From the IMG/VR virus record IMGVR_UViG_3300028027_000190, positions 1-27,564 of that record: a DNA stretch of 27,564 bases. One strand, 5' to 3'. This stretch comes from a virus. Below are positions 5,808 to 26,464 of the stretch, piece after piece. Every line of letters begins with the position of its first letter. Within the stretch, counting starts at the first letter, position 1. A model generated the notes under the pieces. It worked only from the letters and a program-made list of their open reading frames with translations, ran no database searches and was not told the origin of the DNA. Made by a program: the position numbers and the translations under genes.

Positions 5808-8800
5808 TTAATCTTTTATTAATCTTACTGAATAACCATATGTTTTATCTCCGTAGTTTATGAAAACACCTCCAGTATTATAATTAAGGCCTCGGAACCA
5901 AGGGAGTGTAGAAATGTCCTGTGAAGAACTCCACCAGAAACCGTATATGCCAATGTTGTAGAATGTGCCGTTTAAGTAGCGAAAACCTCCAGGAAGAGCT
6001 GTAATTAAACTCTCATTTGTAGCATCTATATTTGGTGTTAACCAATGACATAATCCCGCTTCTTTCATTTTACCACCCGCAACAGTTGCTCCACCTAAAT
6101 AGTCTGTAAGAACAGTCCATTCTGCATCTGTTGGTACATGGTAACCTATTGGTGCTAATCCTCTTGGATCATTTACAGCATACCAATTGTATAATTTTCC
6201 GTAGGTAGGTCCATTAGCTGGGTCATTGTCATAATAACACCAAGCCCCTGTTGTTAATGACTCCCAAACAGTTGGATCTGTTACTTGCGGTATGGGGTCT
6301 CCATTACTATATGTTGTTACATCTAAATTACAATTTTCCCATTCATAATCTGCAATTAGTATTGGATCTCCAGATATGCAATCTATACATTCATTACAAT
6401 CACAAGCAAGTAGACTACTATTTAAATCGTAACATAAATCAAAATCAAAAGACTCTGTATAATCCCATACTAGATATAAATATTTATTACCCAATGTATT
6501 ATCGTATATAAATGAAGATTCATATATTCCAGTAGAAGGGTTTAATATAGGAGTAGCCGTATTCAATAAAGGATATAATGTATCTTTATCCGAATACAAC
6601 GTATTAGACGCTAAATATTTAAAGTTATTTTTTTCTGTATTAAATATAAAATTATCTGTAATAAATTTGTCTGACTGCATTTTAACAGTACTTCCATTAA
6701 CTGGAATAACTCCAACAGATGGCTGACCAGTCATTAAATCATAAAGAGATACTCCATCAGATTCAAGAAAAACATAATCTACATTATATACACTACTAAC
6801 TCCGTCTAAAGACCAATTAAAATTATTATGAATTGTCTGACCTTCCGAAGCTGGAGAATTATACACTATTCTAACCAATGTAAGATCCTCTATAAAAGGA
6901 CAGTTAGTTGTTAATATGTATGATGATTCCTCAAGACATTCTATGATAATTGTTATTCTAGTTGTATTTATTAAATCTTTGTAAAAATTAATAGATCCAG
7001 TTCCTGTAATTTCTTCATTTATTATTTCTACAGTATTGTAGATTACTGTAATATTTGCAGAACCAACTGGAAAGTCGTAATCAATATTTACATCTCCTAA
7101 AGAGGTGCCAACTTCTACATCATAAGTATAAGTATCAAATACTGATTGTCTAGATATAGTGGTATTACATTCATAAATATCTGGAGTAATAGGATTTAAT
7201 TGGTTATTAGTTGATATAACGTACTCGTTCATATATGGATCAAATCCACCAATCTTTTGGTTATTGAACGTAGACTTAAATTCATCTCTAAACCAGTTCT
7301 TTAATCCAAAATTAGATATTACCTCTAATTGTTCTCCAGCATAACTCTGAGCATTAGCTCCAGAACTTCCTTTTAAATTTAATACAGCATTACGTTTAGC
7401 ATCAGTAAAAAATACTTCGCTTCCACGAGATGCAAAGCTCTCAGGGTTATTACTAATACCATAGTTTTCTACTCTAGACATCTGAGTTCCAAGAACTTCT
7501 GGAATAGATGTAATAGCACCACCAGCGGCAGCGTCAGAAAGTAAGTTCTTACCTGATAGAACATAAGATATCTTATCCTCTTGAAGTACAAGAAGGTCAG
7601 TCTTACGAGCAAATAGTTTATTTATTGGTCCAAATGATTTCTCACAATCCTTCCAATTAGAAAGGGCGAGGTTGAATTCATTTAGTTTATTTAAATTTGT
7701 TTCAGCGTTATATACTCCACTATATGTAAGTCCAGCATATCTATCAGCTTCTTTAAATTCTTCCTGAGACACAGCAGTAACCCTACTTCCTAAATAAAAT
7801 GGAGCACCTACAAGAGAATCATTTATCTTATAGCTCTCAACACCATTTCCAAAAGAAAAGCAATTAAAGAAATTTAAGTCAACTACCGCTGGAGTAGAAA
7901 TTGTTTGATTAGATACATTACCAGTATGTAATCCGTCAATAATAGTAAAATTATCACTTCCTTCGTAGTATATCTCTCCATCAGAATCTTGAGCCTCGGT
8001 TTCAAACACCATTAAAGATGTAGCTCTTTGAACCTGAATCTGTATAGTTGTTCTTGAATACTTAGGGTTTATACCTCCACAATCTGGTGTACCAGTAGTA
8101 ACTACTAACCATAATTCACCAGTAGTAGCATTTTCTTGAAATTCATATTGATTATGATTTTGAATAAATGGAAGATGACAATTATTGGTTGTGCAAGTAG
8201 GATTAAAAGTTTCTAATGCAGGATTTTGATCGTTTTCATTAGGTTCTTCACCTCCAGTATATGTTCCAGAACCAAAATCTATATTATCACCCTGTACGAA
8301 ATCATATAAATTATCATAATCTTGAGAAGATGTAAATGTTTTATCAAATATATAGTTACTAGAACCACAATTACTTCCTCTTCCGTTTCTTTTTAAATCA
8401 ATAAATATATGAATCCTACTTCCAGCAGGTATGTCATAAGGAATATATGGAGTTATTAAAGGAGTTTCAGTTACAGATATATATGCTGGATTATCAATAC
8501 TACACGGATATAATGTTGTTTTACCAGTTTGTTTTAAGCCGAAATCTACATAGCTATTAGGTTTGTATTCAGCAGCAAAGTTAGATACCTTAAGAGCCAT
8601 ATATAATCCAGCGGGTTCTATTATTTCAACACCAGCTTCATTTACATTTCCAGTAATAAACTTATTAGGTTGAGACTTAAGCTCTAGTACCTTTGTTTTT
8701 ACCAAACTATCTAGCACTCCATTTGTGTCAGACTTTACTATAAGGGTAGAGTTTTCTTGAACCTTACTTCTATTATCTCCCTCTAATTTAAACCAGGTTA

Positions 8801-10739
8801 AACCAGTATCTTCAACGTAAAATTGATTTGAATATACTATCTGATATAGTGCCTTAGAAGGTTTTACTACAAACTTATATCTTTTAGCCCATGAAGGAGC
8901 TAAATTATTTATAGTAGCTACAATATAATTCTTTTTTTCTGATGCTGATGCTGGAATAAATACAGTATTTAATTTAGATACAAGTGCAGTAGAGCTTCTT
9001 AAATATTCGTCCATATATACAATTCCAACCTCGTAATCTCTATTACTATGAAGACTTCTTCTAGATCCTATTTTTGAAAAAGCAGGAGAAAAAGATGAAT
9101 TATTAAAATATTCATAAGCATAAAAATATGTCCCAACATTATCAGGATCTTCAACTCTAAATTTAACAGCTGGTACTTGAATTTGTATTATATTAGATCC
9201 AACTGAAGATGTTATAGTAAAACCACCATTTATACCAGTAATCCCACTATCAATATCTTGCCATGCACCAAATGGAGGATATGCTCCTTTTGCAACTATA
9301 GAACAATTAAATTGATCGGTAATAGAAAATTCATTACAACTATTAACATATGTTTCGTGTGTGTATATTGCATCTACAAACTCGTCACTTGTAGCAAGGT
9401 CATATACACTCGTATAATTTCTTCTTAATGTAAATATAAAATCATTTTGAAACTCATTTCTAGGAGCGGGTTCAGTAGGTGGATTATCATAATCTACATA
9501 TCCAGAAAACGTTTCGTGTTGTAAATTAAATTCCATTGAAAATAATGAACCCTCAGTTAACTCAATTCCAGTTAAATCTACTGAAACACTTGAATTTTCA
9601 GAAGTAATAGTATTATCTGGATCAATTGTATAGTTAATACCGTTTGTTATCTCATAAGGTAGTTCTACATATCCTATATCCTCACTAACTACATTTAAAT
9701 CATAATCTAATTCAGTATCAATATTATATCCATCAATATAGTTTCCGTATATAAGCCTATTCCCCATTACGGTTTGAGACTTGGCAGTTCTTGGAACATT
9801 ATCATATAGCCTAAGCAACTCACTCTCGGTAAGTGTAGTGTATATTTTTCTATTGTTAAATTCAATACTTTGAATTACATTATCTAACCATCCCTGTTCA
9901 GACTTATCATATCTTTCAATTACATTTATAATATTAGAATCAGACAGTTTAAAACATAAATCAATTCCAATTACATTATAATCTCCAGTATAAAATGAAA
10001 TATCAACAGTATTAAATATATTCTGCATAGACTGATTAGTATATGTAGAATAATCTAATTCAAAGTTACCAGGTTCAAATGCTATCTCACTAAATTGAGA
10101 TAAGGCACTATACTCATTATCCTTGTACTTGTATCTATAAGCAAATGATATAAATCTTTCATTCATATAATTCTCCTCTCCAGCTTGATTATAAAGCTGT
10201 AGCGAAGGAGCTTCTAATGGAGGCGCAACAATAACCGAAATATCATCTTCAGTTATTTCATCAACAGATAGTATAGGTTGTGGATAGCTTCTTGTTACAT
10301 TTATTTTTCTTGGAGGATTTAAATTATCGGTCCAAAATAATAAGTCATCAATCTTATTTATACCATTTATAAGGTAATCTGTGCTAAAATTTAAAACAGA
10401 TGTAGATACTATATGGTATACTATTACGTTATTGTTGGTGTTATAAGATAAAATAATATCTACATTACCAGGATCACAGACAAACCAATATAGAGTTTCA
10501 TTAGATCCATCCTCATAAGAACCAATACACTTGGCGTTTTCGCTAATAGGAACTCCTTGATATAAAATGCTTGTAAGTTTAGTATTTCCCTTTGAATTTT
10601 CTAAGGCTCCAACGCTATTTCCTTCACTTGATCCAATTCTAATATTTAATGCGTCAATATATTGACCAGGAGGAACAATCCTCTCGTCAAAATCTTTATT
10701 CATTTTTCCAGCTAAGAAGTTTACCTCAACGTTTGCCAT
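5808..10739 (-). CDS. Long tail-hub ('muzzle/stabilisation'-type) protein with C-terminal FISUMP domain
   Basis: This 1643-residue protein is the largest in the window. It opens with VNFLAGKMNKDFDERIVPPG and then a YIDALNIRIGSSEGNSVG segment, which I associate with the long tail stabilisation/muzzle proteins of crAss-like and related podoviruses (P22 gp10-like position). Most of the length is Asn/Asp/Tyr/Ser-rich beta structure. From about residue 1463 to the end is a FISUMP-type domain (fibrobacter succinogenes major paralogous domain, C-type-lectin-like fold). It is marked by NWYAVNDPRGLAPIGYHVPT, DAEWTVLTDYLGG, ALPGGFR, GFWWSSSQ and the terminal GYSVRLIKD. FISUMP domains are known targets of diversity-generating retroelements, and the last ~50 codons here show a matching codon signature (see the separate entry). 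The likely role is to close and extend the tail and to present a host-binding domain. The function is inferred from size, position and domain. Confidence 0.8.
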   Translation of the reverse strand: MANVEVNFLAGKMNKDFDERIVPPGQYIDALNIRIGSSEGNSVGALENSKGNTKLTSILYQGVPISENAKCIGSYEDGSNETLYWFVCDPGNVDIILSYNTNNNVIVYHIVSTSVLNFSTDYLINGINKIDDLLFWTDNLNPPRKINVTRSYPQPILSVDEITEDDISVIVAPPLEAPSLQLYNQAGEENYMNERFISFAYRYKYKDNEYSALSQFSEIAFEPGNFELDYSTYTNQSMQNIFNTVDISFYTGDYNVIGIDLCFKLSDSNIINVIERYDKSEQGWLDNVIQSIEFNNRKIYTTLTESELLRLYDNVPRTAKSQTVMGNRLIYGNYIDGYNIDTELDYDLNVVSEDIGYVELPYEITNGINYTIDPDNTITSENSSVSVDLTGIELTEGSLFSMEFNLQHETFSGYVDYDNPPTEPAPRNEFQNDFIFTLRRNYTSVYDLATSDEFVDAIYTHETYVNSCNEFSITDQFNCSIVAKGAYPPFGAWQDIDSGITGINGGFTITSSVGSNIIQIQVPAVKFRVEDPDNVGTYFYAYEYFNNSSFSPAFSKIGSRRSLHSNRDYEVGIVYMDEYLRSSTALVSKLNTVFIPASASEKKNYIVATINNLAPSWAKRYKFVVKPSKALYQIVYSNQFYVEDTGLTWFKLEGDNRSKVQENSTLIVKSDTNGVLDSLVKTKVLELKSQPNKFITGNVNEAGVEIIEPAGLYMALKVSNFAAEYKPNSYVDFGLKQTGKTTLYPCSIDNPAYISVTETPLITPYIPYDIPAGSRIHIFIDLKRNGRGSNCGSSNYIFDKTFTSSQDYDNLYDFVQGDNIDFGSGTYTGGEEPNENDQNPALETFNPTCTTNNCHLPFIQNHNQYEFQENATTGELWLVVTTGTPDCGGINPKYSRTTIQIQVQRATSLMVFETEAQDSDGEIYYEGSDNFTIIDGLHTGNVSNQTISTPAVVDLNFFNCFSFGNGVESYKINDSLVGAPFYLGSRVTAVSQEEFKEADRYAGLTYSGVYNAETNLNKLNEFNLALSNWKDCEKSFGPINKLFARKTDLLVLQEDKISYVLSGKNLLSDAAAGGAITSIPEVLGTQMSRVENYGISNNPESFASRGSEVFFTDAKRNAVLNLKGSSGANAQSYAGEQLEVISNFGLKNWFRDEFKSTFNNQKIGGFDPYMNEYVISTNNQLNPITPDIYECNTTISRQSVFDTYTYDVEVGTSLGDVNIDYDFPVGSANITVIYNTVEIINEEITGTGSINFYKDLINTTRITIIIECLEESSYILTTNCPFIEDLTLVRIVYNSPASEGQTIHNNFNWSLDGVSSVYNVDYVFLESDGVSLYDLMTGQPSVGVIPVNGSTVKMQSDKFITDNFIFNTEKNNFKYLASNTLYSDKDTLYPLLNTATPILNPSTGIYESSFIYDNTLGNKYLYLVWDYTESFDFDLCYDLNSSLLACDCNECIDCISGDPILIADYEWENCNLDVTTYSNGDPIPQVTDPTVWESLTTGAWCYYDNDPANGPTYGKLYNWYAVNDPRGLAPIGYHVPTDAEWTVLTDYLGGATVAGGKMKEAGLCHWLTPNIDATNESLITALPGGFRYLNGTFYNIGIYGFWWSSSQDISTLPWFRGLNYNTGGVFINYGDKTYGYSVRLIKD
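5844..5993 (-). other. Candidate DGR variable region in the FISUMP domain
   Basis: Fifty codons covering residues about 1583-1632 of the tail protein. Seventeen end in C: CGC, TAC, AAC, GGC, TTC, GAC and CTC types. All of these are reachable from AAC by changing only the two adenines. In the ~40 codons just before, I count a single C-ending codon (GAC). Local G+C rises to about 45% over 5881-6000, against about 23-33% in neighbouring lines. The position also fits, because DGR variable regions normally lie at the 3' end of the target gene within a C-type-lectin-like fold. The template repeat and reverse transcriptase are not in this window, so this remains a candidate. Confidence 0.5.
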
Positions 10740-13223: not shown

Positions 13224-14618
13224 TTATGCTTCAAAGATGAAGAAGTTGTTTGCACCTAAAGTACATAAAGCTCTTTCAGATAAGAAGTGAACTTCCATAG
13301 CATCTAAGCTAGAAGTAGAAGCTCCACCAGCAGAACCAGTGATCCAAGTTTTGTAACGTCTGTCTTCAGTTTCAGAAGCTCTGTAACGTACGTGTAAGAA
13401 TGGACGTTTAGCGTTTTTACCAAGAACTTGGTCGTAAACTGTAGTAGAACCAGCTGGTACTAATACTCCATTAACAGAGCCACCTACAATACCACCTCTT
13501 AGTGTAGCATCGTTTAAGTATTTCCAGTCAGTTTTGTAGAAATCGTAACCTCTACGGAAACCTGTAAATCCTAAATTCAATGACATCTCTCTATCGTTGT
13601 CAAACAAACCGTAAGAAACTCCACCAGCAGCATTAGAAGATTGTGCTCCCAACATATCATCAACATCAAAAGAGAATTGACGGTTCAAGAACAATACATT
13701 TTCTTCAATAGCTCCTTGTTTGTCAAGTCTTTGGATAATAGCATCAAAATCAACTAAAGCAGTTGGATTTCCACCACCCCAAACATTTCCTCTATCATTG
13801 ATAGAATAAAACAAACCTTCAGAACCTTTATTTCCATAAACACTTTGAGTCGCAGCTCCAGAACCAGCTTCAGCAGGAACGGCTTCAATCATACTCATTT
13901 CTAAGTAGTCATCAAAACGCAAACGAGTTTCGTGCTCTGATTTAATGTACCATAAGTATCCAGTAGCTCCGTTTTCAGTAGTAACTTCTACCCATCCGAT
14001 TTGTGCCATATCTGAACCAGATACTGCATATTTATCTTTGATGATAATTGGGCTATTCTCGAAGATGTCATCAACTGACTCAAGAGATTCTTCCATTCCT
14101 TCAGTTCCTTTTTTGAATTCAGAACCATAAACAAATGCAGTAACAGTAGCTGTAATAGCAAATGCTTGACCAGTAGACTCGTAGAAAGCAACATCAAAAG
14201 TTCCAGCAGCGTAATCAACATCAGTAATGATTGCTTTGTTTGAATTAGCAGCAACTGCATTATCAGATAAGAAAACTGTTTGACCTTTTCTAAAAGCAAT
14301 ACTTCCAGATAATGTATCATTAACTGTAATTGTAGCTACATCAGCAGTTACAACAGCGTCAGTAGAACAATCTGCGTATTTAGTGTGTAAACGACCTTGT
14401 TCTGCCCATTTGATAAGGTCAGAGTTAGATGGCATTTCAGCTCCAACTGCTCTTAAGAAAGATGCAACTGAGCGATTTCCGTAACGTTCGAATTCTTTCT
14501 CGTAAGTATCAGGAAGATACTGGTTCAAGAAATTGAAATCTGTAATATAATTGGTTGAAAGAGTTTTTCTTTCAGCCGATGGGGTTAATGAAAACCCAGG
14601 TGTTGGCATTACTGACAT
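13224..14618 (-). CDS. Major capsid protein (HK97-fold type)
   Basis: The 464-residue size, the position after a scaffold-like gene and the strong terminator all fit a major capsid protein. The N-terminal arm is MSVMPTPGFSLTPSAERKTL, then FNFLNQYLPDTYEKEFERYG and SVASFLRAVGAEMPSNSDLI. Residues about 85-165 are a Thr/Val/Ala-rich beta region (VVTADVATITVNDTLSGSIA), probably an inserted surface domain. Helical and loop segments follow (GYLWYIKSEHETRLRFDDYL, WGGGNPTALVDFDAIIQRLD, NLGFTGFRRGYDFYKTDWKY). It ends in AMEVHFLSERALCTLGANNF. Codon use favours TTC, TAC, AAC and GAC, unlike most neighbours, as expected for a highly expressed gene. I see no cleavage site and no prohead protease in the window. 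The HK97 fold is known for tailed-phage capsids; the identification rests on context plus overall pattern. Confidence 0.85.
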   Translation of the reverse strand: MSVMPTPGFSLTPSAERKTLSTNYITDFNFLNQYLPDTYEKEFERYGNRSVASFLRAVGAEMPSNSDLIKWAEQGRLHTKYADCSTDAVVTADVATITVNDTLSGSIAFRKGQTVFLSDNAVAANSNKAIITDVDYAAGTFDVAFYESTGQAFAITATVTAFVYGSEFKKGTEGMEESLESVDDIFENSPIIIKDKYAVSGSDMAQIGWVEVTTENGATGYLWYIKSEHETRLRFDDYLEMSMIEAVPAEAGSGAATQSVYGNKGSEGLFYSINDRGNVWGGGNPTALVDFDAIIQRLDKQGAIEENVLFLNRQFSFDVDDMLGAQSSNAAGGVSYGLFDNDREMSLNLGFTGFRRGYDFYKTDWKYLNDATLRGGIVGGSVNGVLVPAGSTTVYDQVLGKNAKRPFLHVRYRASETEDRRYKTWITGSAGGASTSSLDAMEVHFLSERALCTLGANNFFIFEA

Positions 14619-15759: not shown

Positions 15760-16032
15760 TTAGCAGTTCCACTTGTCTAATGCAAGTTTTTTTCTTGTAG
15801 GTTCACCATTAGGTTTCTTCATGGGTCCTGGCATTCCTGACATTCTACTACAGAAAGATTCTCTTCGTTTAGCGTCCTTACTTCCAGGTTTTAACTTAGA
15901 AGGTTTAGTCGTAACTGCGGTTTGAAGTTTTGATCCAGGATTTTCTTTTCTGTATGAAGCAACTCCCTTAGCATTTAAACCGCCTGTCTTACTTTTTCCC
16001 TCGGCTCTTTGCCAAGCTGCTGTTTTTGCCAT
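15760..16032 (-). CDS. Small basic conserved phage protein next to the portal (DUF6321-like)
   Basis: This 90-residue, Lys/Arg/Gly-rich protein has the pattern TAAWQRAEGKSKTGGLNAKG, then ASYRKENPGSKL and RRESFCSRMSGMPGPMKKPN, ending EPTRKKLALDKWNC. The combination 'WQR.EGKN..GGLNAKGRASY' with 'R.SF..RM..MPGP' belongs to a short family that I recall in many phages close to the portal or terminase, assigned from memory to DUF6321. Its function is unknown to me. Its charge and pairing with the portal suggest a nucleic-acid or portal contact. The start ATG overlaps the portal stop by one base (TAATG), implying translational coupling. Two cysteines (in SFCSRM and at the very end) are present, but no zinc motif is formed. 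Confidence 0.75.
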   Translation of the reverse strand: MAKTAAWQRAEGKSKTGGLNAKGVASYRKENPGSKLQTAVTTKPSKLKPGSKDAKRRESFCSRMSGMPGPMKKPNGEPTRKKLALDKWNC

Positions 16033-18464
16033 TATCTTGGTCCGAATTGCGATAAATCAAACGAGTCTAAGTTATCATTAGTAGATTCAAAATCTACTGG
16101 AGGCAAGTTATTCTTACGTTGATCTATCAGTTTTGATTGTTGTGTATTCTGTAAGCTAATTCGTTTGTCCTTAGCCTCTTCCTTCATCTCCTCTTTAGAC
16201 TTAATTGTCTGAACCTCAATACCTTTAAGCTGCATATTATAGTTAAACTCAACTTCCATAAGCTGCATCTTAGCCTGAACCTCACTCTGCATCTTCTGAA
16301 TGTCAAATGCAGATTCTGCCTGCTTAACCTGTAACTTAGCCTGTGTCTCAGCTTGAATCTGTTGCATAGCCACCTGAGCTGCTAACTGTTGTGATTGCTG
16401 TTGCATTTGACCCTGCATTTGCTGAGCCTCCTGAGCTTGTTTTTGCTTTAGTTCTTCTCTCTTCTTTCTCTTAAGTTTAAGCAACTGATTAGCTAGTTTA
16501 AGATTTCTCATCTCTCTAATATCAATAGCATCCTCTAATAAAATAGAATCACGAGATAGTGATATCTGAATGTTCTGTTCTAGTTGAGCCTTCTCTTCCT
16601 CATCAGGTGATACCTCAATAAAGATACCAAAATCATATATGTATAGGTCCTTAATTTCTTCTAAGATACCAACACTATACTTACCTATCTGATTTATAAA
16701 CTCTTCCTTAAAGTCAGAATACTCTAATATATCTGCAACTCTATAAGAAATTGCCTCAGATAATGAACGTGTAACGTATAAACTAGACTCTAGTATGTGT
16801 CTTGTAGCTGTGTTTGAGTTTAGCGCAGCTAACTTCTGAACACCTACTAATGCGTCTGGGTTTGGAGTAGAACCATCACGAGCCTCATTAAGACCAGTAA
16901 CATCTCTAATCATACCCATATAGTGATTATAACTTCCAATTAAACTCTGTAATTTAGCTTGTCCACTATTGGTGCCTAACTCAGAGATTGGAATTCTTGC
17001 ATTATTAAATTCACCATCACCAGTATAGCTTCTACCAATAACACTACCAGTTTGGAAGTATAATCTTAATGCATCCTCTGGATTATATGCTGCTCCAGTA
17101 CCTAAGTCTACCTCATTAATACCATCGGCATCAATAAATACACCATCAGGTACTACCTTAGATAGTACTTGTTGCATCTTAAGGTGAATTACTTGAATCA
17201 AGTCGGCAAATGGAATCATTCTTTTAACCAATGACTCTATAGCTCCCTTATACATTCTTGGCGCAACTGCTACATAGTTAGGGATAGCGTGTTGTGTAGC
17301 TGATTTAGGACGTACCATATTCTTAGATAGCTCCCACTTCAACATAATATTTGTACCAGCAACCATAATTCCATCATACCAAACATCGATAACCTTCTCA
17401 ATTTTCTCGAAGTTCCCTTCGTCCATCATCTCTTGTGGTGGATTAAACGTATCGTCCTTTGGTATCATTTTCTCGGTACCGTTCTCTAATTTCTTTTTCT
17501 TGTATACAATTCTCTTAGTAGTCTTATAGTTGAAATAAAGTAATGTAGCAGAATCTCTACTAAATAAACTATTATTTAACTGAGCTAATCCGTACTGACT
17601 ATTCCAAGACTCTCCATACTTAGATATCTCTCCTAACTGCTCTAGTGTCAGTGTTGGATCAATCTTCATAAGTTCGGTAGTGTGTACTGTTTTAACCTCT
17701 CCCCAATAGAAACAATCGTTAAAGTATGGGTTCTCTGTATAGCTATAGATAACATTCGCTGGATCCACATACTCGATTCTAACTCCATCACCAGGTAAGA
17801 ACATGTGCTTAGCCATACCTATTCCCAATGTAGCAATATCTAAATCGACACTCTTACGAATATCGTTATACTTATTATCGTCAAAGATTGTGTTAATTGC
17901 TTGTTCTTCAGCTATTTCAATAGCAGGTTTGTAGTTTATCTGCATGAACAATGAAAGCTCATCGTCTGTCTCTGGAAGTTCTTCTGGAGGAGTATCAAAT
18001 GCATCAATTCCAAACTGCCCCTTTACTTGAAGAAGTAAATCCTTTGCGGCCATATCGGTCTGAACTGCCTGTTGAAATCTATTTCGTTTATCAGTAGACA
18101 TAGCGTCTTGCGCGTAAGCCTTAACCTTAAACATTCTGTCAGTCATTCCATTAACTACAATGTCAAGGAATTTAGGTATAATTGGAACAGGAGTCCAGTC
18201 CAAGTTTAAGTGACTTAAATCACCATCAACAGAGAGTTCGTTCTTATACTTTCCAACTGATTGTTCTCCACGAGCGTATAGACGTAATTTATGAAAATTA
18301 GAACGTTGATCATAAAATCTACATCCATGACTGTCCTTCTTAAACCACTCATATAATATAGAGTTCCCCACTTGTAAACCATACTCAACAGATTCTTTTT
18401 CCTTATCAGTAGCAAATTGGTCTGGAAAGCTAATTGGATTAATCTTAATATTTACATCCTTCAT
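16032..18464 (-). CDS. Portal protein with long Gln-rich C-terminal helix
   Basis: The 810-residue length and place between the large terminase and scaffold/capsid genes fit the portal, the dodecameric ring at the packaging vertex. Residues 1-650 show the mixed portal pattern. Early segments include VGNSILYEWFKKDSHGCRFY and LDWTPVPIIPKFLDIVVNGM (typical 'P.i.k.lv.g..gr' region). Later ones are MAKHMFLPGDGVRIEYVDPA, the central AVAPRMYKGAIESLVKRMIP and NHYMGMIRDVTGLNEARDGS. From about residue 655 to 778 is a long coiled-coil/Gln-rich helix (QAQEAQQMQGQMQQQSQQLA onward). It ends in a disordered Asp/Ser tail. Such a C-terminal barrel helix is known for crAss-like and P22-type portals. The start directly follows the terminase stop (TAA ATG), and the gene ends in a one-base overlap with the next. 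Confidence 0.9.
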   Translation of the reverse strand: MKDVNIKINPISFPDQFATDKEKESVEYGLQVGNSILYEWFKKDSHGCRFYDQRSNFHKLRLYARGEQSVGKYKNELSVDGDLSHLNLDWTPVPIIPKFLDIVVNGMTDRMFKVKAYAQDAMSTDKRNRFQQAVQTDMAAKDLLLQVKGQFGIDAFDTPPEELPETDDELSLFMQINYKPAIEIAEEQAINTIFDDNKYNDIRKSVDLDIATLGIGMAKHMFLPGDGVRIEYVDPANVIYSYTENPYFNDCFYWGEVKTVHTTELMKIDPTLTLEQLGEISKYGESWNSQYGLAQLNNSLFSRDSATLLYFNYKTTKRIVYKKKKLENGTEKMIPKDDTFNPPQEMMDEGNFEKIEKVIDVWYDGIMVAGTNIMLKWELSKNMVRPKSATQHAIPNYVAVAPRMYKGAIESLVKRMIPFADLIQVIHLKMQQVLSKVVPDGVFIDADGINEVDLGTGAAYNPEDALRLYFQTGSVIGRSYTGDGEFNNARIPISELGTNSGQAKLQSLIGSYNHYMGMIRDVTGLNEARDGSTPNPDALVGVQKLAALNSNTATRHILESSLYVTRSLSEAISYRVADILEYSDFKEEFINQIGKYSVGILEEIKDLYIYDFGIFIEVSPDEEEKAQLEQNIQISLSRDSILLEDAIDIREMRNLKLANQLLKLKRKKREELKQKQAQEAQQMQGQMQQQSQQLAAQVAMQQIQAETQAKLQVKQAESAFDIQKMQSEVQAKMQLMEVEFNYNMQLKGIEVQTIKSKEEMKEEAKDKRISLQNTQQSKLIDQRKNNLPPVDFESTNDNLDSFDLSQFGPR

Positions 18465-20711
18465 TTATCTTATTATTTCGCTATGTGTTCCGCTATTATT
18501 ATACTTTGCAAAGTTAAAGATAATTTTCGATTCTTTTTTGACTTGTGCATACACATTTTTTTGATTAGCCATTATAGCTAATCCTGAACTAATTGCAGCA
18601 TCAAACTTCGTTCTATTGTTTATATCAAACCTTGACCATTCGTTAATTGTTCGTGTAAAGTACATTGAACCCATCTCATCAGAGTCTCTATACGTACCTT
18701 CTAAGTCTAATCCTACATACTTCTCAATATATGACTCAATCGCAGATGCGTGAGACTGCTTAACATCTTCAGAAGAGTTAGGAATACCTCCAAGCTCTTT
18801 CTCTGTCTTAGAGAGGTTATTATAGTGCTTATCTGGTCTATTCATAGAAAATCCTCTATAACCTCTGTTCTTGAAATGATATAGTAGCCTAGGCTTATTA
18901 TTCTCAACCAGGATAGGCATACCATAGAATACACACGCCATCAAAACCTCTTCGAAGAATATCTCTGCCGTCTGTGGCCTTGCAATGTACTCCAAGAAGA
19001 AATGATTGCTTGGAGCATTATCCATATTAAACTTCGTAAGACCGTGAAGAGATCCGTTAGAACCTCCGCCTCCTACAGTACCTGATATATCATAAGGGTC
19101 ACATCCAAATGCACCAATATGGTCATTTCCAGGATACTTCATTCCATTCTTATTAATAATCGCATTCTGTAAGTTACGTTCTGGTATCCATGAAACATTA
19201 AACCTGCCCCTTGGATCTGGAGTCCATACCACCTTGGTGTCCTTTTCTCCGTTTAACCAGCTGAACGAACCTCTAGTAAGTACTCTATCTTTTATTAGAG
19301 AGTCGTTATAGTCTATCTGTTGGTATATCTTTGTTAGGTTGAATATTGATGATTTACTCTCATCTCTAAAGGCGTGAGACTCTGTTCTTGAGAACTGTCT
19401 ATAGAACTCGTTAAGAGCATCAGCATCACTCTTTAATGAAGCAACCTCATTCTCCCAATAGTCAATGGCACCATTAGAGATCATCTGTCCATCAATACCA
19501 AGTACTGGTTTTTCTGGCTTTCTGAATACTGGCATTCCATACCTGTCTATATAGCCCTCGAAGTTCCACTCCATTGGTATATACAATGAGTACATACCAG
19601 ACTTTGTCTGACCATTAGCATTACGTGTGATTACATTTGATTCTTCGTATAACTTTTTGAAGTTAGCACCTCCCTTTTCAAGTGCGTTAGGTGTCGAACC
19701 CATCATACACTTTCCAATAATCTTAGAACCTAATCTAAGACAGGTCTTGGTTACACGCCAGTTATTTAAGATGTTATCTGGCTTAATCCATTTCCCCGAT
19801 TCGTCATGTACGAGTAATAGTAATTTCTCACCATCATAACTATTGTCAGCCGTGTTCTTCCAGTCAATTGTAGTGTCAAGACCTCTTATATCAGAGTCTG
19901 CACTTTCGTACATATTCTTCTTGGTAATCTTAGCAGCAGGAACTCTAAACGCAAGTTCTGTCTTTGGTTTATCCATACCATCCTGGATAGGCTTGAAGAA
20001 GAATGGGTAATTGCTGATAATAGGAACCACCTTGTTGGTAAACATTGTCTTAGCATCATTACCAGTCTTTGACAGGATTCCAAGCCTTGCATCTTTAGCA
20101 AGTGTTCCAGTATTAGATAACTCATTAGACCCCATAAACGAGAATCCAGAACGTCTAATCTTTAGGTATACCATACCAAATGAACGGTTATCAGCCTTAC
20201 AGGCTTCCCAAAATATAAAGTATATCCTGTTTGCCTCTCGGTAGTCTGGAAGTCCAACATCAATCTTTGTCCACTGTAGGTACATATAATGAGATCCTGT
20301 GATATAAGTTTTAACGCCATTATTCATAAAGAAAAATCCGTGATCCCTTCTATCAAACTCTCCCTCTATATAATCAACCCACTCATCCTTAAAATTCTTA
20401 GGCATAGTATGCCAGTTGAATATAGTCTTGATATTACTAAGCTCCCTTGGATACTCAGATGGTTGCCAGTACTGGTTCTCTTTCTTATTATCTCTTTTAT
20501 AAACATCGTCTGGGGTTGATGGTAGTGCAATTAATAATCCGCTAACACTATAAATATCTCCAATGGTTCCATCTTTAGATATAACCACCATATCATACTT
20601 CTCATTATAGCCATACTCCCAAGTCTTGCTCTTGTTCTTTACTACAATAACACTCTTAGGTACATGTTCTTGGACTATCCTGTATATACTATTTTGATCT
20701 TCTTTCTGCAA
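18465..20711 (-). CDS. terL: Terminase large subunit (packaging ATPase-nuclease)
   Basis: Residues 1-500 form the ATPase domain. The Walker A position has KIRRSGFSFMGSNE (about 184-197), a variant without GKT. Walker B is LLLLVHDESGKW (297-308, with D303 and E304). The coupling motif is MMGSTPN (337-343). From about residue 530 is the RNase H-like nuclease domain, with FGCDPYD (D538) and LVENN (E603), and a possible third acidic residue in TKFDAAISSG (D704). The protein cuts concatemeric DNA and pumps it through the portal encoded by the next gene. It starts inside the upstream small gene (23-base overlap); the next Met is too far in, so 20711 is the best start. Length (748) is at the long end for terminases. 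A promoter-like motif lies within its 3' end. Confidence 0.92.
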   Translation of the reverse strand: MQKEDQNSIYRIVQEHVPKSVIVVKNKSKTWEYGYNEKYDMVVISKDGTIGDIYSVSGLLIALPSTPDDVYKRDNKKENQYWQPSEYPRELSNIKTIFNWHTMPKNFKDEWVDYIEGEFDRRDHGFFFMNNGVKTYITGSHYMYLQWTKIDVGLPDYREANRIYFIFWEACKADNRSFGMVYLKIRRSGFSFMGSNELSNTGTLAKDARLGILSKTGNDAKTMFTNKVVPIISNYPFFFKPIQDGMDKPKTELAFRVPAAKITKKNMYESADSDIRGLDTTIDWKNTADNSYDGEKLLLLVHDESGKWIKPDNILNNWRVTKTCLRLGSKIIGKCMMGSTPNALEKGGANFKKLYEESNVITRNANGQTKSGMYSLYIPMEWNFEGYIDRYGMPVFRKPEKPVLGIDGQMISNGAIDYWENEVASLKSDADALNEFYRQFSRTESHAFRDESKSSIFNLTKIYQQIDYNDSLIKDRVLTRGSFSWLNGEKDTKVVWTPDPRGRFNVSWIPERNLQNAIINKNGMKYPGNDHIGAFGCDPYDISGTVGGGGSNGSLHGLTKFNMDNAPSNHFFLEYIARPQTAEIFFEEVLMACVFYGMPILVENNKPRLLYHFKNRGYRGFSMNRPDKHYNNLSKTEKELGGIPNSSEDVKQSHASAIESYIEKYVGLDLEGTYRDSDEMGSMYFTRTINEWSRFDINNRTKFDAAISSGLAIMANQKNVYAQVKKESKIIFNFAKYNNSGTHSEIIR
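18509..18516 (-). promoter_or_regulatory. Possible internal promoter element before the portal gene
   Basis: TAACTTTG on the minus strand fits TAnnTTTG and lies 44 bases before the portal ATG, inside the terminase coding end. It overlaps a 12-base palindrome ACTTTGCAAAGT (18503-18514). Such motifs occur by chance in AT-rich coding DNA, so confidence is low. Confidence 0.3.
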
Positions 20712-21755: not shown

Positions 21756-22976
21756 TTATTTGGCTTTTAGAATTTCAATCTCTGCTTTTAATTCTTTAAC
21801 TGCATTGATAAGCGCAAATGTTAAGTCGCTTGAGTTGAAGTCGTACAATTCTGTTTTTTCTTCATCCTCTTCATTTAATTTTGCCTTGTATGTACTGACT
21901 GTCTCAGGAAATATTTCTTTCATCTCTTGAGCTATAACCCCTGTGTATTTTGCTCCCTTAGTAGTACCCGCTAATCCATTGTATTCATAGGTAACTGTAT
22001 TAATAAGCAATATATCCGCTAATCCTTTTGTATAAGGTGTAACGTTTTCTTTTATTCTTGAATCACTAAAGACACTCCAAGAACCACCTCCAGGTTTTGC
22101 TGCACTTTGTGCTGCAACTAAGGAATAAGAACTATTACTAGAAAAATAACCTCCAAAACCACTAGTAGAATATCCATAAACACCATAACTGTACTCTGAC
22201 TGACCAAAAATCCCCCAGCCATAATCACTAGCCCCATAAACTCCAGTATCCTCACCCGCTATTCCTGAAACGGCAGGACCTGAGTTTCCAGCACTAGCAA
22301 CATCTATTAATATTGCATTTTCTGAATAGTTACCTGCGTCAACTATTTGTTGTAATGTTGGAGTAGTTGATATAGAACCATCTGCCTTTAAGAACTGAGC
22401 AGAAGTACCACCTGTTTTTATAAATGATTTCGCAGTTGTGTCTCCATTATTCGCCACTTTAAATACTACTGAATCTGCACCTAAAACATATTTACGTGCT
22501 TTAAAATAATCTCCTGTATGTGCGTCAAAACTGTTTACCTCATAACCACGAGAGGTTCCTGAAGTAGCGGTTAAGTCAGCAAAAAATGCAACATTATCAT
22601 CACCAGTAGCACTGGCTAAAAATCCAACTACAGATCCTGCTAGGGAACCTGGAGCTTGTCCATTTATATTTGCAACAAATGCATCTGGAGCAGGTTGATA
22701 GGTTGGGTATTCTCCTGTTTGAGCAGGGATTGTAACTGATATTCCGTTTTGATGTACTGTAGACGAATTTGATAAAGTAATATCAATTCCCTCTGATACA
22801 GTAGTTGGAACTACAATTGTATTTCCAGAGTCAACAACTTGTTGCAATGTAACCAAATCGATTACACTCTGAATACTAAAATTCTTAGTCTGATTTTGAG
22901 TTTCAACATCAGTCCCTATTAATAGGTCATCGGTAGTTGGAACTGCTATTTCTGGATATGCACTAATCTTAGTCAT
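21756..22976 (-). CDS. Tail fibre/spike with C-terminal S74 self-cleaving chaperone
   Basis: This is a 406-residue trimeric-fibre type protein. Residues 1-40 (MTKISAYPEIAVPTTDDLLI, then GTDVETQNQTKNF) match the N-terminus of the 979-residue fibre, so this is probably the virion-attachment module. The middle has two LQQ(V/I)VD segments (about 44 and 208), TSAQFLKADGS and a glycine-aromatic repeat (GVYGASDYGWGIFGQS, GVYGYSTSGFGGYF, residues 245-278). From about residue 300 is a Peptidase_S74 domain, FSDSRIKENVTPYTKG with the catalytic Ser304 and Lys309, then AKYTGVIAQEMKEIFPE and a C-terminal coiled coil. In this family the domain helps fold the trimer and then cuts itself off before the serine. 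A clear Shine-Dalgarno AGGAG lies six bases before the start, unlike its neighbours. Confidence 0.9.
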   Translation of the reverse strand: MTKISAYPEIAVPTTDDLLIGTDVETQNQTKNFSIQSVIDLVTLQQVVDSGNTIVVPTTVSEGIDITLSNSSTVHQNGISVTIPAQTGEYPTYQPAPDAFVANINGQAPGSLAGSVVGFLASATGDDNVAFFADLTATSGTSRGYEVNSFDAHTGDYFKARKYVLGADSVVFKVANNGDTTAKSFIKTGGTSAQFLKADGSISTTPTLQQIVDAGNYSENAILIDVASAGNSGPAVSGIAGEDTGVYGASDYGWGIFGQSEYSYGVYGYSTSGFGGYFSSNSSYSLVAAQSAAKPGGGSWSVFSDSRIKENVTPYTKGLADILLINTVTYEYNGLAGTTKGAKYTGVIAQEMKEIFPETVSTYKAKLNEEDEEKTELYDFNSSDLTFALINAVKELKAEIEILKAK

Positions 22977-23187
22977 TTATTTCTCCTGTTTGTAAATTAA
23001 CACTCACCTTACCATAATTTTCAAGTAGTAGGGCCTCTAGTTCTTTATATTCTTTAGACAGATTGTCTAAATCAATAAATAATTTTTGCTTCAATATTTC
23101 AGCATCAGCAATATTTAATTTTGTTTCATTAAATTTCTGGTGCAAGGTCCTTAGACCTTCCAATTCTTCTGTAGTTACTGTTTTCAT
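22969..23187 (-). CDS. Small coiled-coil protein, 72 aa
   Basis: Nearly all of it is a heptad-like helix (LEGLRTLHQKFNETKLNIAD, then LKQKLFIDLDNLSKEYKELE). A short beta end (GKVSVNLQTGEIND) follows. It overlaps the S74 fibre by eight bases. A promoter-like TATCTTTG stands four bases before its ATG, in the 18-base gap after the preceding gene. Its function is unknown; a fibre-associated or assembly role is possible from position. Confidence 0.7.
   Translation of the reverse strand: MKTVTTEELEGLRTLHQKFNETKLNIADAEILKQKLFIDLDNLSKEYKELEALLLENYGKVSVNLQTGEIND
22983..22987 (-). promoter_or_regulatory. Shine-Dalgarno site of the S74 fibre
   Basis: AGGAG on the minus strand is six bases before the ATG at 22976, within the coding end of the 72-residue gene. 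It is notable because most starts in this window have no such motif, as usual in Bacteroidetes. Confidence 0.55.
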
Positions 23188-23191
23188 ATTG

Positions 23192-23199
23192 CAAAGATA
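23192..23199 (-). promoter_or_regulatory. Bacteroidetes-type -7 element TATCTTTG before the coiled-coil gene
   Basis: TATCTTTG followed by CAAT and ATG on the minus strand. The four-base distance is identical to that at 4298-4305 and implies a transcript with almost no leader. A possible TTG lies too far upstream (24 bases from the motif). It could serve the coiled-coil, S74 fibre and packaging genes. Confidence 0.45.
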
Positions 23200-23205
23200 G
23201 TAAAA

Positions 23206-23508
23206 TTATTCTACTAAATATCCCAACTGCTCAAAAGCTAATTTAGAATACAATTCCGCACTTGTTAAATCTTGCATTTGTGCATCTACTAATTCAACAG
23301 AAAACGCTCCTTGTTGAACATCTGTAAAGATTGCACCCGCTCCGTCTTTGTATGCTTCGTGACTTGCATAAGTAGCCGCTGCTATTTCTAACGTCACACC
23401 GTTTGCACGTCCTGCATATTCTAAACGAACATAAACACTTGGCAACTCAATTTCTGTACCTTTAATTAAAATCTTTTTTTCTGCCGTAGCACTTACTAAT
23501 AATCCCAT
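23206..23508 (-). CDS. Small protein of unknown function between the fibres, 100 aa
   Basis: It is a compact, probably mixed alpha/beta protein. The N-terminal strands are GLLVSATAEKKILIKGTEIE and VYVRLEYAGRANGVTLEIAA. The middle has ASHEAYKDGAGAIFTDVQQG and FSVELVDAQ, and it ends in a helix (LTSAELYSKLAFEQLGYLVE). I do not recognise a family. It begins after a 16-base gap made of TTTA repeats (A-rich leader on its own strand), typical of starts in this window. Its position between two fibres suggests a virion or fibre-related role, but nothing in the sequence proves that. Confidence 0.65.
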   Translation of the reverse strand: MGLLVSATAEKKILIKGTEIELPSVYVRLEYAGRANGVTLEIAAATYASHEAYKDGAGAIFTDVQQGAFSVELVDAQMQDLTSAELYSKLAFEQLGYLVE

Positions 23509-23524
23509 TTTTTTATTTATTTAT

Positions 23525-26464
23525 TTATATTACTACTTTAACAACTCCCGCAGTGTGATAAAAAGCCCCTACTGTTAAACCTCCCGCAATAGCTAGAGCG
23601 TTTGTCGCGTAATCTACCAATCCTACCACTTGAAGTTTTGAAGTTGGAGCGGTCGTTCCAATACCTACGTTTCCACCATCTTTCATTAACAATAATTTAC
23701 TGAATCCGCTTGCTACATTAGAAATTCTAAAAGCTGGGTAGTAAGTTCCTCCGTTCCAATATGATATATCGGTACTTTCACCCGCTAATCCACTATTACT
23801 AATTAATGAAAAGTTGCCGTATGTTCCTAACGATGTTCCCGCTAAAACTCCAACTACCGCTGTTTGCGCTGTATTTATATCAATTCTACTTGTTGACCTA
23901 AAAATAACATTCCCAATTACCTCTAATTTTTGATTAGGAGTTGCCGTTCCTATACCTACATTCCCTCCTATACCTACATTCCCTAATCCATTAATAGTCA
24001 TTAAATCCCCACTATCAGCACTATTCCTAACTCGTAAAGCTATATCAGTTGATAATGCTCCAGGTGCTGCAATATGTAGTCTTGAGGTTGGATTAGTCGT
24101 TCCAATACCTACGTTACCTTGTGAATCAAATCTTACTCTTTCACCAACTATACCGCTAGTATTTTTTGTGTGAAAAGTAAATGCATTACCACCACTTCCT
24201 GCAGCTGTATTTACTAAACTAATTTTTGCACCAGGAGTAGCCACTCCCTCTCCCGACCAAGTAGAAAATCTTATATCACTTGAATTACCTAAAGTTGAAG
24301 CTGCAATATTATCTAAATATAAAATAGGTCCAGCTGTACCAGCCCCACTTAAACTTAAATGTAACATACTTTCTGGTGTTGCCGTTCCAATACCTACATT
24401 CCCCAATCCATTAGCAACTAACAAATCACCAGTATCAGCACTATTCCTAACTCGTAAAGCTATATCAGTTGATAATGCTCCAGGTGCAGCAATGTGTAAT
24501 TTAGCTGTTGGAGCAAGTGTCCCAATACCTACATTGCCCCCAGCGGTTTGTAAATTTATATTATAGGCTGTTGCTGTATCGTTTCTTTGTGATTGAATCC
24601 AAGTACTTCCTGTGTCTGAAATACCTGTATATAATCCATATAATCCATTTGAACTTAAAATAGAAGTTGTTCCTGAGGTTTTTGAACCTAATACAGGATT
24701 TGCATAGTTTTGATTTGAGAATACTTCAAATCTAAGATTTATACCTAATCCACCAATACCTATTCTTGAACCTGTATCATAAATAATGCTATTACCCAAA
24801 GAGCTCGACCCTGTAAACTTAGGTAAATAGTTTATTGTTCCAGTTCCTGTAATTGGATTTGTTAATGCGTTTTGTTTCCCATTAAATGTAGTCCAATCTG
24901 TTGATGTTAAATATCCGTTTACACTTGAACTTGCAGGGCTTAATAAATCAATTACAGAGGAGTGCTCCCATAAGCTATCAGCGTCGTTCCAATATAATAT
25001 CTCGTTATTTAAAGCATCAACATTTTCAACATCTGCCAAGTCTCTTAAATAAATATTTGGTAATACTGCTACAGGAATAGCTGCCGTACTTCTCACAGGG
25101 CTTATTCCACCAAATTGAAATTTATATGTTGGATTTGAACCTACAGGACTCGTTAATCTATCAGCGTAATATTTTAAAACTACTCTATCGGTATCTAAAA
25201 ATACACCATCGTTCCATAAAGCAACCGCTGAAAATTCAACGTATCCACCATTTGTAACTGGTAAAGTTTTTGATGACTCAGTTATAAAAGTTTCAACTCC
25301 TAAATTATCACGTTTGTAAACTCTAAAAAAGAACTCAGCTTGTCCTGTTCCACTTGTACGTGAGATATTTCCTATAGTTGTAATGTTAAAAATACCAGGA
25401 TTTCCCGATATTATATTCGCATCACTAATTAAAGAACCGACTAACTGATTTGTTGTGGTAATTACACCCGTTGAAACGTCAACTGCTGTAGTATTAAAAC
25501 GTGAGTCACTTATATTTCGAACTAAAACAGTATATCCAGAAACATCGGAAGCCGTTGTAGTTGCATATAAATCCAAAGTCGAAGGTAAATCCGCTGAAGT
25601 TAAATAAACATTATTATCAACTGAACCATCTGCCTTTAAAAATTGAGTTGCTTGCCCACCATCTTTTATTAAATGAGCCGCTGTAATATCAAACTCTCCC
25701 AAATCTACGTCTTGCGTAGCACCAGTATAAGGTACAAAACCAGCAGTATCTAACGAAGTAATAAAAGGATTTATTCCATCCTCTCCATCGTTAATAAAGT
25801 CGGAAGTATTTGTCGGTTTATTTAATATCTCTGAAACTCCAGAAGTCGCATCCCAATCACTATTAACTTGTGGCGTTACATCTGCTGCCGTTATAAAAGG
25901 ATGTACTCCATCCTCACCATCATTAATAAGGTCAGATGTTTTTGTTGGAATATCTCCACTATCTATTAAAGACACTAGATAGTCCTTATCCTCAACTATA
26001 GATCCATTACCAGTAGTGTAAGAAACTACCACATCAAAGAAATCAGGTTCGTCTATATTCTCTACAAGACTAACTACCTTATAAAGTCCAAATATGTTTA
26101 TATCATCAGCCTTATAAATCAATACGTTACTTCCTATTAAGAAGTTGAGGTACTGAGTTACATCATTACCCTTAAGCGTATACTTACTAAGTATAAATGA
26201 AGATATGCTAGCTAAACTATACGGAGTTCCAACCTGTGGCTCAAATGTTATGGTACCTGGCAATCTAGTATCACCAACCTCAAGTATATCGTACCTATAT
26301 CGTATAGGAGTACCAATATCTATTACCTGGTTCTCGTTAAAATAAACAGCTAACTTTGTTGGAGTAAAATTCTTTGTTGTGTACTGAGTCTGCGCATCTG
26401 ATCCAATCCACTTGTCTGAACCAGTAACCTTGTCGTCAATAACGTATCTGCTTATTTTTGTCAT
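23525..26464 (-). CDS. Long tail fibre with GIGT repeats, 979 aa
   Basis: Residues 1-33 (MTKISRYVIDDKVTGSDKWI, then GSDAQTQYTTKNF) form the module shared with the S74 fibre. Residues about 174-240 hold two copies of SD(L/F)INDGEDG..PFIT. Then come FVPYTGATQDVDLGEFDITA (about 243-262) and QATQFLKADGS (271-281), all common fibre linkers. From about residue 610 on there are multiple NVGIGT..P...LH repeats. The end (YATNALAIAGGLTVGAFYHT, then VVKVVI) resembles a common C-terminal capping motif of Bacteroidetes fibres. There is no S74 domain. Likely a trimeric receptor-binding or side fibre. Exact DNA repeats inside the gene (see repeat entries) suggest that length can vary by recombination. Confidence 0.88.
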   Translation of the reverse strand: MTKISRYVIDDKVTGSDKWIGSDAQTQYTTKNFTPTKLAVYFNENQVIDIGTPIRYRYDILEVGDTRLPGTITFEPQVGTPYSLASISSFILSKYTLKGNDVTQYLNFLIGSNVLIYKADDINIFGLYKVVSLVENIDEPDFFDVVVSYTTGNGSIVEDKDYLVSLIDSGDIPTKTSDLINDGEDGVHPFITAADVTPQVNSDWDATSGVSEILNKPTNTSDFINDGEDGINPFITSLDTAGFVPYTGATQDVDLGEFDITAAHLIKDGGQATQFLKADGSVDNNVYLTSADLPSTLDLYATTTASDVSGYTVLVRNISDSRFNTTAVDVSTGVITTTNQLVGSLISDANIISGNPGIFNITTIGNISRTSGTGQAEFFFRVYKRDNLGVETFITESSKTLPVTNGGYVEFSAVALWNDGVFLDTDRVVLKYYADRLTSPVGSNPTYKFQFGGISPVRSTAAIPVAVLPNIYLRDLADVENVDALNNEILYWNDADSLWEHSSVIDLLSPASSSVNGYLTSTDWTTFNGKQNALTNPITGTGTINYLPKFTGSSSLGNSIIYDTGSRIGIGGLGINLRFEVFSNQNYANPVLGSKTSGTTSILSSNGLYGLYTGISDTGSTWIQSQRNDTATAYNINLQTAGGNVGIGTLAPTAKLHIAAPGALSTDIALRVRNSADTGDLLVANGLGNVGIGTATPESMLHLSLSGAGTAGPILYLDNIAASTLGNSSDIRFSTWSGEGVATPGAKISLVNTAAGSGGNAFTFHTKNTSGIVGERVRFDSQGNVGIGTTNPTSRLHIAAPGALSTDIALRVRNSADSGDLMTINGLGNVGIGGNVGIGTATPNQKLEVIGNVIFRSTSRIDINTAQTAVVGVLAGTSLGTYGNFSLISNSGLAGESTDISYWNGGTYYPAFRISNVASGFSKLLLMKDGGNVGIGTTAPTSKLQVVGLVDYATNALAIAGGLTVGAFYHTAGVVKVVI
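23948..23983 (-). repeat. 18-bp exact tandem duplication in the fibre gene
   Basis: The unit TCCTATACCTACATTCCC occurs twice directly in tandem on the plus strand. It encodes a doubled GNVGIG in the fibre (GNVGIGGNVGIGT) and keeps the frame. It looks like a recent slippage event. Confidence 0.9.
24013..24067 (-). repeat. 55-bp direct repeat, copy 1
   Basis: The 55 bases are identical to 24433-24487, exactly 420 bases (140 codons) away and in the same frame. They code for the STDIALRVRNSAD-type segment before a GIGT repeat. Confidence 0.9.
24433..24487 (-). repeat. 55-bp direct repeat, copy 2
   Basis: Identical to 24013-24067, while flanking repeats in the fibre are diverged. The identity points to recent duplication or gene conversion within the fibre gene. 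Confidence 0.9.

Follow-up and report, generated by a model that had tools for sequence, protein, structure and literature searches.

A FISUMP domain on the muzzle homologue of a crAss-type phage with a predicted DGR-type variable region

The window, i.e., the whole stretch of DNA analysed here, is a virus record of 27,564 bases without end repeats, in which crAss-type genes for terminase, portal, tail and a capsid-type protein are found (Table 1). Judged from G006 and MW202828, the full genome probably measures about 60-64 kb. Gene order indicates that the capsid-type gene probably encodes the major capsid protein. The product of the gene under study, P0001, is a virion structural protein (phrog_14478, E 6e-254), the first 150 aa of which are homologous to gp44, the muzzle protein of crAss001 (31% identity; hhalign probability 90, E 1.7e-6). 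This homology and the position of the gene, after the ring-type genes and before the muzzle C-terminal domain protein, place P0001 among the muzzle proteins. No solved structure matched it by sequence.

An earlier note on this DNA had described the protein as a tail hub. This name has to be abandoned, as P0001 is a muzzle homologue of 1643 aa with a gp44-like N-terminus, and the crassvirus tail hub proteins (THA/THB), gp38 and gp39 in crAss001, are small collar proteins of only about 215 and about 114 aa. The note had also placed the diversified site on the tail tip and not on a separate fibre, and this is supported by the fusion of the FISUMP domain to the muzzle homologue, a core protein of the tail tip. 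In the window, the crassvirus muzzle C-terminal domain (PF25729) forms an ORF of its own, split off the muzzle core. An endosialidase-type chaperone domain (PF13884) is present in the protein encoded at 21756-22976, near a 979-aa protein (23525-26464), the gene of which contains internal repeats (a 153-nt direct repeat with 83% identity). Both proteins look like fibre components.

Table 1. Positions of the genes and features considered in the window
Feature	Coordinates	Strand	Basis or remark
Muzzle C-terminal domain protein, 247 aa	4312..5055	-	PF25729, E 5e-14; next-but-one gene from P0001
P0001 gene	5808..10739	-	ORF, 1643 aa / 1643 codons
3' end after the variable region, putative IMH place	5808..5837	-	GGT TAT TCA GTA AGA TTA ATA AAA GAT TAA; putative role
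Fib_succ_major (FISUMP) domain, aa 1462-1642	5814..6356	-	PF09603, E 4e-38
DGR-type variable region (predicted)	5823..5993	-	Stretch aligning to cellular DGR templates; NNC cluster at about 5853-5981
Conserved muzzle core, about aa 1-1440	6420..10739	-	At least 598 matching stretches in IMG/VR
Probable major capsid protein	13224..14618	-	phrog_13704 virion structural protein; homologues in G002, G006 and MW202828
Portal protein	16032..18464	-	phrog_6547
Terminase large subunit	18465..20711	-	phrog_6681

The C-terminal end of P0001 was assigned to the FISUMP (Fib_succ_major) family, as the earlier note had proposed, by the profile match listed in Table 1. The AlphaFold2 model of this domain has a pLDDT of 88.8. 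In a Foldseek search with the model, the best match was the C-terminal domain of Legionella Lcl (E 0.0036), followed by C-type-lectin-like proteins, all of these matches being weak. The region thus lies as in DGR-type targets, at the 3' end of the gene and in a domain with a predicted C-type-lectin-like fold (from PF09603 and the model). In the best 80 of at least 598 IMG/VR matches, the conserved muzzle core stops near aa 1437, and the sequence beyond it is short or unrelated, which marks the muzzle C-terminus as a plug-in site. The muzzle-core relatives (L118-L197) have at their end either a short tail rich in Cys or an unrelated extension of up to about 550 aa. In G002, L126 and L006, the FISUMP domain is a separate ORF located directly after the muzzle. 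Domains of this family were furthermore found in many unrelated phage proteins, also as tandem arrays.

Codons ending in C (NNC) reach their highest density in the P0001 gene at codons 1580-1636, among the last 65 codons, where 17 of 50 are of this type; the gene mean is 4.0 (sd 2.6). The count of 17 given in the earlier note is therefore the maximum of the gene. It was matched in one of 20,000 codon shuffles, and none of 200,000 simulations that kept the amino acids of the cluster and the codon use of the gene reached it, the expectation being 4.1 per 50. Among the large ORFs of the window, the cluster shows the highest synonymous NNC excess (z 5.1; runner-up 3.9). The local rise in G+C was likewise reproduced, with 45% in the 120 bp at 5881, which is within the top 2% of the window. 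The figure of one NNC codon in about 40 preceding codons was close: codons 1547-1586 contain none, and codon 1546 is GAC. It is also true that all the codons of the cluster can be reached from AAC, but this holds trivially for every codon of the NNC type. What counts is whether the region agrees with a template outside the adenines, and such agreement was obtained with a consensus of cellular templates, as described below.

Where a phage genome has several Fib_succ_major copies in tandem or close together, their NNC content can be very unequal (G009, 29613-33947; G012, 22128-26458; G118, 18541-19665). The copies of G009 contain 20, 1 and 1 NNC per 50 codons, as if one copy alone might be the live target in such arrays. 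Codon bias acting genome-wide was ruled out, since the tandem copies of a single genome can have as few as 1/50 and as many as 20/50.

The frame conserved in NNC-rich relatives provided a template-core pattern, AAC TGG TGG AGT TC.. GAR AAC. It was found in nine contigs of Bacteroidota MAGs, i.e., in cellular genomes, and gave no match in IMG/VR, the two collections being of different size. Most of the nine contigs carry adenine-rich template repeats, and several of the templates adjoin a Fib_succ_major target and a DGR reverse transcriptase (motifs GLPIGNLTSQ and YVDD). One of them, in a MAG labelled Chryseobacterium gleum (L106/L110, CAMAXI010000024.1), is a complete cellular DGR. It consists of a target with collagen repeats and Fib_succ_major, a bAvd-like gene, a template and a reverse transcriptase, and avd was found in this locus alone.

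A template consensus was formed from six MAG loci, all of them from Bacteroidota; a reverse transcriptase adjoins in at least four of them. The variable region of the window matches this heterologous (cellular) consensus at 67 of 88 non-adenine positions (0.76). By codon position the matches are 18/20, 23/25 and 26/43, i.e., 41/45 for the first and second positions together and 0.60 for the third. Less than half of the template adenines are kept (31/65), and 11 of the 17 AAC columns are occupied by NNC codons. The non-adenine match is 0.85-0.92 in bacterial variable regions, 0.74-0.90 in NNC-rich phage domains and mostly 0.33-0.62 in the NNC-poor phage domains serving as controls. At the third position, the bacterial regions reach 0.81-0.88, compared with 0.60 in the window. 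With a larger set of domains the ranking was unchanged but continuous; the window scored 0.74 and the best NNC-poor domains about 0.70-0.72, so that the window stands on the intermediate side. A continuum of template similarity across phages is expected if many copies decay. Several variable regions of phages without a DGR, e.g., G039v1 (0.89) and L209 (0.90), are as template-like as the active bacterial ones.

Differences between close relatives are concentrated at the same sites. The phage contigs L001 (IMGVR_UViG_3300036978_000314) and L005 (3300045539_000125) are 98.5% identical over 6.5 kb. Within the variable region, they differ at 35 of 65 template-adenine sites, compared with 7 of 97 other sites (odds ratio 15, p 4e-11). 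The corresponding odds ratio was 10.7 for a pair of bacterial variable regions and 9 for the two variable regions of G039; for unrelated control FISUMP pairs it was about 2.7, because the template-adenine columns are binding-face residues. L001 and L005 are also mosaic upstream within the FISUMP domain, so ordinary recombination contributes to their differences. Taken together with the presence of the domain in many unrelated phage proteins, this mosaic structure means that domain exchange certainly happens. The template-like variable regions of DGR-less phages and the adenine-site differences in near-identical phages suggest that mutagenesis in the group is recent. Four IMG/VR contigs from different records (L200-L203) share one strong variable region with identical protein sequence; such regions thus do not all vary between samples.

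The fit to the cellular templates and the differences at adenine sites among relatives uphold the proposal of the earlier note that the FISUMP domain contains a DGR-type variable region. Judged from these sequence comparisons, the region of the window appears to be a DGR-written variable region. The window copy is probably somewhat decayed, with a partly eroded third-position frame, and it may no longer be updated.

The template and the DGR reverse transcriptase, for which the note had proposed a search, were found neither in the 27.6-kb window nor in related records, whereas the controls were recovered. The window contains no RVT_1 domain and no template. RVT_1 was also not found in about 150 related phage records; the same search found BPP-1 and all nine IMG/VR records picked for a DGR reverse transcriptase. 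A profile built from the cellular reverse transcriptases gave no match in the fetched phage records and recovered five of five controls. The 50 muzzle-bearing records, several of them of about 60 kb, were free of RVT_1. No template was detected, after masking of the Fib_succ_major copies, in the 736 kb of 13 phage records whose variable regions are strong: the scores of 23-34 were at the level of the reversed variable-region control, and the five positive controls, four of them bacterial DGRs and the fifth a phage DGR, scored 225-320. A window-specific template pattern had no match in IMG/VR. Apparent templates in G039, G007 and G003 were rejected, as they are neighbouring FISUMP copies.

A 127-nt overlap of the two ends, as usual in circular assemblies, was found in two of the 13 records, G039 (121 kb) and G128 (30.6 kb), which therefore look complete. 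A muzzle-type protein is encoded in G039 near its three-domain target, and portal and terminase genes are present in G128. G039 (IMGVR_UViG_3300034082_001419) is an apparently circular, crAss-like genome. Its 611-aa protein at 55389-57224 (L092:15389-17224) consists of three tandem Fib_succ_major domains with two strong DGR-type variable regions, and the genome contains neither template nor reverse transcriptase. A phage-encoded DGR acting in cis is thus not supported by the window or by the related phage records. The lack of a reverse transcriptase in these phages, together with the matching templates in Bacteroidota genomes, suggests that the mutating machinery is probably located outside them.

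The sequence following the variable region, a putative IMH place, is kept among the phage relatives but differs from the corresponding sequence of the cellular DGRs detected: their templates end in SVRCVRD, and the phage type is SVRLIKD. In 395 Bacteroidia genomes, a thin sample searched with one exact pattern, two unrelated hits were obtained but no template ending in the phage manner (TCAGTAAGATTAATA). In IMG/VR, the pattern for a template with this end matched only variable regions or unrelated DNA. An AAC-rich template of this kind would end in GGNTWYTCNGTAAGATTRATA. The different 3' ends, and the fact that no cellular template with a phage-type end was found, count against simple trans action by the cellular DGRs detected here.

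Considering all these data, it appears slightly more probable than an even chance that the region is a DGR-target variable region in a muzzle-fused FISUMP domain, diversified now or recently by machinery outside the phage. A DGR in the host chromosome, in a prophage or in a co-infecting element would then provide mutagenised cDNA in trans. Alternatively, homologous exchange would bring the phage an already diversified domain. The outcome would be an altered receptor-binding surface of the tail tip. Since the window is a fragment, the phage's own genome could still carry a DGR. A complete DGR of its own, the template and reverse transcriptase of which would lie outside the 27.6-kb fragment, is nevertheless unlikely. 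In its favour are the probable genome length of about 60-64 kb and the complete cassettes of other crAss-like phages (PMC7290462, PMC12386605, PMC11054128). Yet in the cassettes examined here and in the cited papers the template and the reverse transcriptase are kept close to the target (within about 2 kb in L318), and in the window neither was found in the 5.8 kb downstream of the target or in the 16 kb upstream of it; the RVT_1-free muzzle-bearing records argue in the same direction.

It is improbable to about the same degree that the domain is a fossil, captured once from a DGR genome or left behind after loss of the DGR, and changed since then by point mutation and domain exchange only. 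The low third-position match of the window compared with the bacterial regions and the continuous template similarity among phages are consistent with this, as are the wide distribution of FISUMP domains in phage proteins and tandem arrays and the crAss phages reported to have variable regions without a template (PMC7290462). Such a history would not account for the highly template-like regions of G039v1 and L209 in the absence of a DGR, or for near-identical phages differing at adenine sites. An origin unrelated to DGRs, through local codon or G+C bias or through ordinary positive selection on the binding face, is very improbable and already disfavoured. The enrichment at template-adenine columns in the control FISUMP pairs and the absence of cis machinery would agree with it, but the NNC excess is far above the need set by the amino acids, tandem domains of one genome diverge strongly in NNC content, and the fit to the templates is specific. 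The preferred reading, diversification by machinery outside the phage, can be extended only tentatively: that environmental phages, freshwater and crAss-like ones included, keep receptor-binding variable regions diversified in trans by DGRs of hosts or mobile elements is possible but rather doubtful.

The DGRs of Bacteroidota (L100, L104, L106, L107) resemble the window in having a Fib_succ_major target whose gene carries the variable region at its C-terminal end, and their templates have the skeleton CGC ... GGC AAC AAC GGT AAC TGG TGG AGT TCT ... in common with it. In these systems the target, the template and the reverse transcriptase (with avd in L106) form one locus, whereas the window has the variable region only, located on a phage virion protein and with a different 3' end. 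Fib_succ_major was already known as a DGR target, including examples from the human microbiome (PMC4159848). The cassettes of crAssphage LMMB and of Zeta and Epsilon crAss-like phages also belong to crAss-like phages and act on C-type-lectin-like receptor-binding targets (PMC7290462, PMC12386605, PMC11054128). Their targets are tail fibre or receptor-binding proteins with adjoining template and reverse transcriptase; in the window the target is the muzzle, and neither of the two was found. In Mtd of the Bordetella phage BPP-1, a receptor-binding tip with a C-type lectin fold is likewise diversified at template adenines, but mtd, avd, TR and brt are united in one cassette, unlike in the window. 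Variable regions without their own reverse transcriptase or template are also present in Thiohalocapsa PB-PSB1, for which activity in trans was proposed (PMC10907252). The helper DGR is there on the same chromosome, whereas that of the window would be outside the phage genome.

The largest survey of DGRs in metagenomes states itself that remote targets are invisible to it (PMC8144416). No report of phage variable regions without their own DGR, or of a variable region fused to a muzzle, was found in the open-licence literature. What seems to be new is that a number of phages have strong variable regions while lacking a DGR, and that one region of this type is joined to the muzzle. As a reverse transcriptase beside the target is what DGR surveys search for, phages of this kind would be missed entirely. 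If the proposed reading is true, hypervariation would affect a conserved virion component of crassviruses, the muzzle, and not accessory fibres, and the phage would borrow the mutator of its host for the variation of its tail tip. With a host-borne mutator, the receptor adaptation of the phage would depend on a host gene.
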